DNA of 37,122 nt, from positions 1 through 37,122 of the forward strand of contig CAIOMN010000136.1 of the NCBI GenBank assembly GCA_903859415.1. Reading direction: 5' to 3'. Below the pieces are notes generated by a model, which was not told the DNA's origin, ran no database searches, and worked only from the letters and a program-made list of their open reading frames with translations. This document shows, in pieces, positions 15,207-17,232 of this stretch. How positions within the stretch are numbered: the stretch's first letter is position 1; every line of letters begins with the position of its first letter. This DNA is from an uncultured Methylococcaceae bacterium (GTDB lineage: Bacteria; Pseudomonadota; Gammaproteobacteria; Methylococcales; Methylomonadaceae). A program made the position numbers and the translations under genes.

Positions 15207-15560
15207 TTAGTATTCGACCAGAATATCTTCATCCCTGACAATCATCTGACAAGCCAGACGCCAAGGACAAGGTAAATCATCGACAATCATTTGCTCCATT
15301 TCTTCTTTAGTGATTTTGCCACTTGTTCTTAAAACTTCTTTTTCTTTCTCTGTTAAAGGACCACCCATCCGTTGACGTTTTTTATCATCGATACTAGTGA
15401 CTTTTATCAGGCATGTGCCACATTCCCCATCTTCACATTCATAATTAATGGGAATCTTGTTTTCTCTGGCAATTTTTAACAATGTTTCAGTATGACTGCC
15501 TGCAACTGCATAAACGGTTTTATCCCTATATTCGGGATTTGAAAAGGTAATTAAAGCCAT
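15207..15560 (-). CDS. [2Fe-2S] ferredoxin of the FeSII (Shethna protein II) type
   Basis: A 117-residue plant-type [2Fe-2S] ferredoxin with cluster ligands Cys42, Cys47, Cys50 and Cys104 (YECEDGECGTC and RLACQ). An insertion of about 50 residues separates the third and fourth ligands (IDDKKRQRMGGPLTEKEKEV and on to DDLPCPW). That insertion, the start MALITFSNPEYRDKTVYAVAG and the end IVRDEDILVEY match Azotobacter vinelandii FeSII as I remember it. FeSII forms an inactive, O2-protected complex with the nitrogenase component proteins when oxidised. The equivalent role here is inferred, but the placement between a second ferredoxin and nifQ in the nif operon supports it. An ordinary electron-transfer ferredoxin is the alternative. 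Confidence 0.8.
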   Translation of the reverse strand: MALITFSNPEYRDKTVYAVAGSHTETLLKIARENKIPINYECEDGECGTCLIKVTSIDDKKRQRMGGPLTEKEKEVLRTSGKITKEEMEQMIVDDLPCPWRLACQMIVRDEDILVEY

Positions 15561-15599
15561 GATTGACTCCTAAATGTTGTAAAGTGCATAGATAGATTT

Positions 15600-15618
15600 C
15601 CCTCTTTAAAAAAGAGGG
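15600..15618 (-). repeat. Intercistronic hairpin between two ferredoxin genes
   Basis: A perfect 8-bp inverted repeat CCCTCTTT / AAAGAGGG around a 3-nt loop lies in the 76-bp gap between the 95-residue ferredoxin and the FeSII-type gene. On the transcribed (minus) strand no T-run follows, so it is not a classic terminator; a processing or mRNA-stability hairpin is more likely. Confidence 0.45.
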
Positions 15619-15636
15619 AGTAGGTGTGTGTATTTC

Positions 15637-15924
15637 TCAGACTGGTTTAACCTTGATGGTTCCACCAAGAACCTGGGCTTGACAAGCTAAGCGGTTATGC
15701 TTGCCAGCCATATTTTCCCGTAGAATTTTATCTTCTAGCACTGAGGGTTCAGTCAGGTTATTCCAACCTTCAGTCACTTTTGTAATGCACGTTCCACAAT
15801 CGCCCTCACGACATCCGTAAGTAATTCCAGAGCCGACTTTTTCTGAAATTTCGATCAATCTTGTGCCCGCTGGGGCGGTAACGGTAACGTTGATATCTTC
15901 AAAGGTAATCGACGCTTTTGCCAT
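15637..15924 (-). CDS. nif-associated [2Fe-2S] ferredoxin
   Basis: A 95-residue plant-type ferredoxin with ligands Cys38, Cys43, Cys46 and Cys81 ([10 protein letters not shown] and RLACQ), spaced C-x4-C-x2-C-x34-C. It lacks the long insertion of its neighbour and so is a separate class, closer to small nif-linked ferredoxins such as Rhodobacter FdxD, which has been linked to nitrogen fixation in the presence of O2. It may pass electrons to the flavodiiron protein encoded just upstream (27-bp gap), since that protein has no rubredoxin domain. Partner assignment is inference. Confidence 0.85.
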
Positions 15925-15951
15925 TTTGTTCTCCAGTTATATTAAAAATTG

Positions 15952-17232
15952 TTAAGCAAGATCAGAAATATCAATTACTTTAGCTTGCCTTAAACCCATT
16001 AAATCGAGGGCCATTTCATGCCCAAATTCACGACAGAGTTGGGTTTCTTCTTCTGTCGGAATTAACTTGATACGTATACCGGGAATAGGTACACGCAACT
16101 TAAGTCCACGTAAGCGGTCTTCTACCATTTTGACACCTTCACCTGTCCACCCATAAGAGCCAAAGACGCCGCCTAACTTTGATTTAAGATTGATGACGGT
16201 GAGTGAAGAGAGTAAATCCCACACGGGTTTAACTGCGTCACCATTAATCGTAGGCGTTCCAAAAATAATGCCATCGGCTCCTTCGATTAAATCAACAAAG
16301 GGTGAGATCTCGCTGCCTTCTAGGTCGTATAAAGAAACCCGGACATGTTCAACAGACATAGCGCCCTCATAGATGGCTTCAGCCATGCGTCGAGTATTGC
16401 CATAGGAACTGATATAAAAAATTAACAAGGTCTTTTCACCCGCGCTTATTTCACTTTGTAATGCCGAGTGGGACAGTTCTTTATAGCGTTGCATATAACG
16501 CTGCGGTTGATCACGCAATAAAGGGCCGTGGGCAGGTAAGATAGTGGTTAATATTAACGGCTCTAATAGAGTCAATGCCCGATTAACATAATCTTTAAAA
16601 GGTCGCATGATGTGTGCGTAGTAGTATTCAAAGGAAAACCTAAAATCGCCAACCACATCGTTAAATAAGCGCGAGTCACAGAAATGACAGCCAAACACAT
16701 CCCCAGAAAACAAGATGGCTTCTTCCGGTAGATAGGTACATTGAGTGTCTGGCCAATGTAAATAGGGCGTATGAAAGAACTGTAAGGTTCTATCACCTAG
16801 GGACACGCTGTCACCTGTTATAACCGGAGTAAATTCAAAATCATCCTGCTTTAATAGCGCTTTAAGCATAGACTGCGCTTTTTGTGAAATATACACCCGA
16901 GCTTGGGGTGCGCGGCGCATGAGTTCAGGTAAGGCACCTGTGTGATCAGGTTCTAAATGGTTTAGGACGATGACCTTGATTTCGTCATAACGAGTGACGG
17001 ACTCTAGACGAGTAAAGAAATCATCGGCAAAGTTTTCTTTGACGGTATCAATGACAGCAACGCCTTCGCTGCCTCTTACGATATAGGCATTATAAGAAGT
17101 CCCATTGGCTGTTTTTAAAATGATGTCAAAGTTACGTAAGTTAGGGTCTAAAGCGCCCACCCAATGGACGCGCTCTGATAAAGCAACGGCTTGGGGTATA
17201 TTACCAATACTTAATACGGGTACTTTACTCAT
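15952..17232 (-). CDS. Flavodiiron protein (class A), O2/NO reductase
   Basis: Soluble A-type flavoprotein that reduces O2 to water or NO to N2O at a non-haem diiron site fed by FMN. The 426 residues have a metallo-beta-lactamase-like domain (about 20-255) and a flavodoxin domain (about 266-410). The diiron set is complete: His92, Glu94, Asp96, His97 (NHLEPDH), His159 (LHWPD), Asp178 (SGDVFGCHF) and His235 (LPAHGP). The FMN phosphate loop is SSYGNTRR (about 275-282). There is no C-terminal rubredoxin domain, so an external donor is required; the ferredoxin downstream is a candidate. It overlaps nifO by 8 nt, placing it firmly in the nifB operon, where O2 removal for nitrogenase is the likeliest job. 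NO removal is the alternative. Confidence 0.93.
   Translation of the reverse strand: MSKVPVLSIGNIPQAVALSERVHWVGALDPNLRNFDIILKTANGTSYNAYIVRGSEGVAVIDTVKENFADDFFTRLESVTRYDEIKVIVLNHLEPDHTGALPELMRRAPQARVYISQKAQSMLKALLKQDDFEFTPVITGDSVSLGDRTLQFFHTPYLHWPDTQCTYLPEEAILFSGDVFGCHFCDSRLFNDVVGDFRFSFEYYYAHIMRPFKDYVNRALTLLEPLILTTILPAHGPLLRDQPQRYMQRYKELSHSALQSEISAGEKTLLIFYISSYGNTRRMAEAIYEGAMSVEHVRVSLYDLEGSEISPFVDLIEGADGIIFGTPTINGDAVKPVWDLLSSLTVINLKSKLGGVFGSYGWTGEGVKMVEDRLRGLKLRVPIPGIRIKLIPTEEETQLCREFGHEMALDLMGLRQAKVIDISDLA

Follow-up and report, generated by a model that had tools for sequence, protein, structure and literature searches.

How nitrogenase survives in aerobic and microaerobic diazotrophs is a central question, relevant also to the engineering of nitrogen fixation, and the locus described here raises it in a specific form: why does the nifB operon of an uncultured Methylococcaceae bacterium carry, between nifO and nifQ, genes for a flavodiiron protein (FDP), a small [2Fe-2S] ferredoxin (FdxC) and a second [2Fe-2S] ferredoxin of the FeSII type? 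The genes lie in a stretch of 37,122 nucleotides (hereafter the window; contig CAIOMN010000136.1 of assembly GCA_903859415.1), one contig of a 3.72 Mb genome. The answer that we favour, with moderate confidence, is that FDP, fdxC and FeSII form a conserved accessory block, mostly located in the nifB operon, which defends nitrogenase and the assembly of its cofactor from O2. All three open reading frames (ORFs) are complete and lie on the minus strand (15207-17232), within the minus-strand order nifL, nifA, an ORF of 86 residues, nifB, fdxN, nifO, FDP, fdxC, FeSII, nifQ; the FDP start and nifO share an 8-base overlap, and FeSII is separated from nifQ by 2 bases. The identities given to the three genes in a first-pass annotation of this DNA, made from the letters alone, agree with the Pfam, PDB and TIGRFAM matches.

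Is the arrangement a peculiarity of one genome? We surveyed 151 genomes of the order Methylococcales; nifD was matched in 82 of them, in 80 above the cut-off. FDP was found in 62, FeSII in 74 and fdxC in 72; FDP is present in 61 of the 82 nifD-positive genomes versus 1 of the 69 nifD-negative ones, and in this single genome (G087) the cassette sits between nifO and nifQ, so nifD is probably absent from the assembly. Every FDP genome of the order has fdxC (62/62), adjoining FDP in all 62 loci, and 60 have FeSII, the two others (G072 and G111) being cut by contig ends. The complete order nifO-FDP-fdxC-FeSII-nifQ, the conservation of which the first-pass annotation had proposed to check in Methylococcales, occurs in 57 of the 62 loci. 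Three of the five exceptions are contig-end cuts (L013, L024, L059), and in the other two (L066 and L067, genus g39) FDP-fdxC is found with FeSII near nifHDK. By genus, FDP is present in 19 of 44. FDP is missing from 21 nifD-positive genomes: 10 of these carry both fdxC and FeSII (one fdxC being a fragment), 4 carry FeSII only, and 7 carry neither; one of the 7, G149, shows just a weak nifD match. Genomes of family f1 have the trio either whole or not at all, one genome cut by a contig end excepted: two nif-bearing genomes of this family (loci L191 and L192) read nifB-fdxN-nifO-nifQ, with 78 and 79 bases between the nifO and nifQ ORFs, and have no match to FDP, fdxC or FeSII. Over 58 loci the cassette distances track those of nifB (Spearman 0.91 for FDP, 0.85 for fdxC, 0.89 for FeSII and 0.87 for nifQ); in dN/dS estimates (NG86), synonymous sites were saturated in 14 of 25 comparisons, and the 11 defined ratios are low, from 0.006 to 0.077.

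The block extends beyond the order. In a sample of 369 genomes of the class, nif-type FDP (at least 66% identity) was found in 12, with three further matches at 32-34%; nifD (E 1e-150) was found in 31, and FDP in 11 of these versus 1 of the 338 nifD-negative genomes. Wherever nif-type FDP occurs in this sample, fdxC and FeSII occur too (12 of 12); among the 20 nifD-positive genomes without nif-type FDP, fdxC is found in 2 and FeSII in 6. The twelfth FDP genome (G389) has nifB, fdxC, FeSII and nifQ and no nifD match at E 1e-150. A sample of the phylum gave FDP matches in 19 of 398 genomes: 14 lie at 30-36%, and the other 5, one of them the window FDP itself, belong to the nif type. Outside the order we read 14 FDP loci from 10 families, one of another class. 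The three genes adjoin one another in 13 of these loci, 8 showing the full order and 5 having nifO or nifQ undetected; the remaining locus (L078) has FDP alone. Named loci (the best 80 of 225 relatives, overlapping the order set) comprise 71 with the full order, 6 with the trio and 3 with FDP-fdxC. In three loci (L094, L209, L210) fdxC-FeSII are kept adjacent and FDP is missing from the operon. In a plasmid search with the three proteins, FDP matches were of just 34-38% identity, fdxC had none, and FeSII had one, in a Methylococcus plasmid. As a correction to the first-pass annotation, the arrangement is not particular to this genome, nor is it a lineage-specific insertion; an insertion peculiar to the source genome is ruled out by the order, class and phylum surveys. 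In G389 (L078 and L209) FDP stands apart, beside an ORF that by eye looks iron-sulphur-like, and fdxC-FeSII remain in the nifB operon.

These surveys also bear on the idea that the linkage reflects operon hitch-hiking, with FDP and FeSII lacking functional coupling. In genus g39, and in several genomes that lack FDP, FeSII does lie next to nifHDK, and FDP stands alone in G389; against this, the same order recurs in many families of two classes, and family f1 keeps or lacks the trio as a unit. We consider hitch-hiking highly improbable.

What could the FDP do? Pfam finds an ODP beta-lactamase domain (residues 47-236), Flavodoxin_1 (271-404) and no further domain; with just these two core domains, the enzyme would need an external electron donor. 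It matches PDB 1ycf, which we take to be Moorella FprA, across residues 14-409 (E=7e-74). The complete metal site reported by the first-pass annotation is confirmed: all seven diiron ligands (H92, E94, D96, H97, H159, D178 and H235) are present; they are identical in 76 of 76 nif-type FDPs and kept also in nine divergent controls. FDP matches at E 1e-40 are bimodal, the nif type having at least 66% identity and the others 30-36%, with none between these bands. Among named records, proteins of 99% identity occur in Methylococcales and Methylococcaceae metagenome-assembled genomes and one of 89% in Methylobacter tundripaludum SV96. Judging from the operon described in PMC6925177, the window FDP would be the orthologue of Rhodobacter capsulatus FprA.

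An alternative is that the FDP is a nitric oxide (NO) reductase which shields NifB and the nitrogenase clusters from NO. Its two strongest NCBIfam matches are indeed flavorubredoxins, and its best PDB match, 1ycf, bears the name nitric oxide reductase; however, both NCBIfam scores fall far under the cut-offs (284 and 253 bits versus 635 and 711), Pfam finds no rubredoxin domain, and the nif-type proteins form the separate identity band described above. PMC13133992 describes second-shell Lys53/Tyr271 in the O2-selective Entamoeba FDP and Asp52/Ser262 in the NO-selective E. coli FDP. We mapped these positions by alignment onto Lys65/Tyr277 of the window FDP: the Lys/Tyr pair is present in 76 of 76 nif-type FDPs, whereas Asp/Ser is found in six flavorubredoxin controls, which score 874-1019 bits, over the 711-bit NCBIfam flavorubredoxin cut-off. 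The second-shell pair of the window FDP is suggestive of the O2 type rather than the NorV type, and we regard a role in NO defence as quite improbable. As a name, a NorV-type NO reductase assignment is ruled out by bit score and residue pair, although the enzyme itself may still act on NO.

The best PDB match of FdxC is 9i2a, Ferredoxin-4 (E=4.7e-39, 58 of 92 residues identical), which is presumably the R. capsulatus protein. In that bacterium the corresponding FdC has a potential of -275 mV, too high to reduce Mo-nitrogenase (PMC10936413), and it has been put forward as the donor of FprA (PMC10936413, PMC12929197). On the reported potential, FdxC as a direct electron donor to nitrogenase is ruled out. 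The first-pass annotation had suggested that the small ferredoxin could feed the FDP: as one role this agrees with the proposal for FdC (PMC10936413), but as the sole role it fails, fdxC being found also without FDP.

The third protein matches PDB 5ffi, the Azotobacter FeSII, over its full length (E=2.2e-29, 52% identity), with the N-loop region retained. Our alignment comprised 72 FeSII proteins of nifB-operon type (L094 contributed one, FDP loci the other 71); their mean identity to Azotobacter FeSII is 50% (43-55), and FeSII near nifHDK (seven loci in six genomes) shows 49-55%. The cluster residues Cys42, 47 and 50 (PDB-chain numbering) are present in 72 of 72 and Cys102 in 71, the remaining one having a gap; the N-loop or lid (residues 59-96) is present, with Lys70, Glu71, Lys80 and Asp93 in 70-71 of the 72. 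The N-terminal positions are less constant: in place of His13 all 72 have Arg or Lys, Lys15 is kept in 70 and Lys16 is Thr in 71, these three being, as we assume, the N-terminal His and Lys residues that matter. The FeSII-nitrogenase complex of Azotobacter is described in PMC12585515, and according to PMC11301756 protection by FeSII has been demonstrated only in A. vinelandii and A. chroococcum. For R. capsulatus, the review PMC8777916 credits FdxD with protection of Mo-nitrogenase.

Would the three genes be expressed with the nitrogenase system? The nifB sigma-54 element, TGGCACGACCTGTGCT at 19596-19611, has one mismatch to the consensus used. Within the window, such motifs are not above chance, either for sigma-54 elements (at most 2 mismatches; 4 found, 5.86 expected) or for NifA-type upstream sites (UAS, TGT-N10-ACA; 12 found, 10.9 expected). 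Across loci, the sigma-54 score is at least 10/12 in 54 of 64 nifB upstream regions. A UAS lies upstream of the element in every one of the 64, and in 31 of them two UAS match the spacings seen in the window to within 2 bases. Place and conservation, not counts in the window, thus support the motifs, and on these grounds the first-pass placement of the genes behind a sigma-54/NifA-type nifB promoter is upheld. An internal NifA promoter (10/12 element plus UAS) was found in none of 75 FDP and 79 FeSII upstream regions. The loci L060-L065 contain no nifB; there fdxN, with a sigma-54 element of its own (11/12), is the first gene of the cassette unit. Between 14500 and 20100 the minus strand has a single terminator-like site, which falls on the nifB promoter itself. 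NifA dependence of fprA and FdxD is reported for R. capsulatus only (PMC6925177). In RNA-seq of M. buryatense 5GB1, fdxBCD belong to the nitrogen genes that rose along with nifHDK at one CH4/O2 ratio (PMC7154130); fdxC and fdxD of that account are equated with the cassette genes by name only, and the cassette is present in the M. buryatense 5G genome (L172). A 9-base perfect inverted repeat in the fdxC-FeSII gap (15599-15619, minus strand) was considered as the site of a conserved regulator and dropped, a repeat of at least 7 bases being found in 8 of 72 gaps; L011 has a similar repeat.

Taken together, these comparisons make O2 defence the likely function of the block. In the mechanism that we propose, NifA and sigma-54 would transcribe the cassette together with nifB; FdxC, a ferredoxin of FdC type, would hand electrons to the FprA-type FDP, which would use them to turn cytoplasmic O2 into water; and, if O2 still gets through, oxidised FeSII would bind the MoFe protein and the Fe protein in an inactive, O2-resistant complex. 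In this organism, that the FDP acts on O2, that FdxC supplies its electrons, that the genes are co-transcribed and that the protective complex forms are inferences.

However, several observations weigh against O2 defence by the block: (i) 20 of the 31 nifD-positive class genomes are without nif-type FDP, and genomes of one genus are not independent. (ii) The Lys/Tyr pair is only suggestive of the O2 type, because swapping Lys/Tyr left the selectivity of the E. coli FDP unchanged (PMC13133992) and because L187, a control that passes the other flavorubredoxin cut-off, carries Phe/Trp, and two divergent FDPs below both cut-offs (L188 and L189) have Lys/Trp. (iii) The role of FprA is called unknown in PMC10936413, and our literature search found no O2-reductase measurement on any nif-linked FDP. 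(iv) Deletion of fdxD in R. capsulatus gave no defect in diazotrophic growth (Fe-nitrogenase, photoheterotrophic; PMC10936413). (v) FDP is not named in the available part of the M. buryatense RNA-seq account (PMC7154130). (vi) In L080 (G326) and L083 (G580) the FDP gene of an otherwise kept cassette has an in-frame stop, reflecting either decay or sequencing error.

The main doubt concerns FdxC. The fdxC gene is found without FDP in 10 of the 82 nifD-positive genomes of the order; eight of these orphan loci are complete (L086-L093; L095 is a fragment), and 6 of the 8 have their own sigma-54 element (at least 10/12) and UAS. In R. capsulatus, deletion of fdxC raises the doubling time from 10.3 h to 43.7 (+/-21.2) h in photoheterotrophic diazotrophy with Fe-nitrogenase, and extra copies are toxic in photoheterotrophic diazotrophy (PMC10936413). 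Since fdxC occurs without FDP and its deletion slows growth, FdxC has at least one role independent of FDP. This leads to a further alternative, in which only FeSII is protective, and FdxC and FDP work in the electron flow of nitrogenase, in redox balance or in cofactor maturation; the FDP would then either dispose of excess ferredoxin electrons, as a safety valve, or take part in cofactor assembly. The orphan promoters and the R. capsulatus phenotypes speak for it, as does the position of the block among the cofactor genes nifB, nifO and nifQ. Yet the FdC potential is too high for reduction of Mo-nitrogenase, the diiron site is complete with an O2-type second shell in 76 of 76 proteins, and two nif genomes of family f1 pass from nifO to nifQ without any of the three genes, so the trio is unneeded for cofactor assembly there. 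We regard this alternative as unlikely and retain O2 defence as the preferred reading. In the orphan loci L086 and L089-L093, from genomes without FDP, fdxC with its own NifA/sigma-54 motifs lies about 0.9 kb upstream of nifLA.

The role of FdxC could also be extended. In a tentative proposal, which we rate as unlikely, FdxC would be a redox hub coupling O2 removal to the nitrogenase lock, and the operon a self-timing O2 switch: with O2 present, FDP would drain FdxC, FeSII would stay oxidised and nitrogenase would be locked; with O2 gone, FdxC would be reduced again and re-reduce FeSII, releasing nitrogenase. The basis of this proposal is that the potential of R. capsulatus FdC is close to that of Azotobacter FeSII, -262 mV (PMC11301756), and that fdxC stays adjacent to FeSII where the operon lacks FDP (L094, L209, L210) and to FDP where FeSII has moved (L066, L067). 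If true, it would make the release of nitrogenase after FeSII locking testable.

How does the block compare with known systems? (i) R. capsulatus is similar in having FprA (listed as flavorubredoxin) and the FdIV ferredoxin in one NifA/RpoN-dependent operon (PMC6925177, PMC10936413). That operon, fprA-fdxCN-rcc03282-rnfF-rcc03281, is apart from nifB, and the FeSII-like fdxD, NifA-dependent and listed as a Shetna ferredoxin, lies by locus numbers beside nifH, whereas the window has the pair with FeSII between nifO and nifQ (PMC6925177). (ii) Azotobacter FeSII is homologous to the window protein over the full length and shares the N-loop, but differs at the N-terminal residues. Its gene is monocistronic and outside the nif clusters; the first-pass annotation had given nifO and nifQ as adjacent in Azotobacter, of which just a six-gene nifB operon with nifQ, FeSII being elsewhere, could be confirmed (PMC4465626). 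(iii) The nif cluster of Planctomycetota HD03 contains FeSII together with an enzyme that consumes O2, and it has been termed a dual-defence system; there a hydrogenase takes the place of the FDP-ferredoxin pair, and the system is inferred from the genome (PMC12628686). (iv) Acidithiobacillus ferrooxidans has an FeSII-like gene in its nif cluster, with a proposed protective role, but two ORFs downstream of nifK, and the available part of PMC2607301 does not mention an FDP partner. (v) Flv3B of Anabaena heterocysts, an FDP, reportedly enables diazotrophic growth in the presence of O2. Cyanobacterial FDPs differ in having a third, flavin-reductase-like domain (PMC4390876).

The first-pass annotation knew of no described system with the linked arrangement. 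For the contiguous FDP-fdxC-FeSII trio this stands: our literature search, which left subscription papers partly outside and is not proof of absence, found no description of it. For the combination it does not, given the R. capsulatus and Planctomycetota precedents (PMC6925177, PMC12628686); since the dual-defence cluster has already been so described (PMC12628686), the idea of combining FeSII with the removal of O2 is not new. The pieces and the fprA-fdxC pairing are known, and the conserved linkage of the trio may be new. In the block, FprA and FdC, both of unsettled role, stand next to a nitrogenase protector of a known type; the block is also a ready three-gene set for tests of O2 tolerance, and offers natural comparisons with and without the trio inside one bacterial family.

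Table 1. Coordinates of the block and its neighbours in the window, with the basis of each assignment.
Feature	Position	Strand	Basis
FDP, FprA-type flavodiiron protein, 426 aa	15952..17232	-	Pfam, PDB, ligands
fdxC, [2Fe-2S] ferredoxin of FdIV/FdC type, 95 aa	15637..15924	-	Pfam Fer2, PDB
FeSII (Shethna II / FdxD) type [2Fe-2S] ferredoxin, 117 aa	15207..15560	-	Pfam Fer2, PDB
nifQ, downstream flank	14629..15204	-	Pfam NifQ E=1.5e-53
nifO, upstream flank	17225..17647	-	TIGR01616 159 bits, cut-off 109
fdxN-like 4Fe-4S ferredoxin	17663..17941	-	Fer4 families
nifB, first gene of unit	18052..19557	-	TIGR01290 655 bits, over cut-off
sigma-54 -24/-12 element of nifB	19596..19611	-	one mismatch; conserved
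NifA-type upstream site TGT-N10-ACA	19674..19689	.	motif match
Second NifA-type upstream site TGT-N10-ACA	19707..19722	.	motif match
nifA	20019..21566	-	TIGR01817 over cut-off
nifL	21563..23188	-	TIGR02938 over cut-off

Several neighbouring features complete the picture. The fdxN-like protein scores under the cut-offs of the NCBIfam YfhL and FdxA models. An Rfam search of the window gave zero matches. The 86-residue ORF between nifA and nifB (19743-20003, minus strand) has no Pfam or NCBIfam match, and relatives of it occur near nifA or nifB in several loci, at variable distance. Upstream of nifL, on the plus strand, two TGT-N10-ACA sites and a sigma-54-like motif recognised by eye, TGGCATAAATGATGCA, lie at 23346-23361, 23386-23401 and 23478-23493; a divergent rnf cluster begins downstream of them, from 23541 (Pfam Rnf-Nqr, RnfC_N and NQR2_RnfD_RnfE), and this position suggests that the rnf cluster may be under NifA control.

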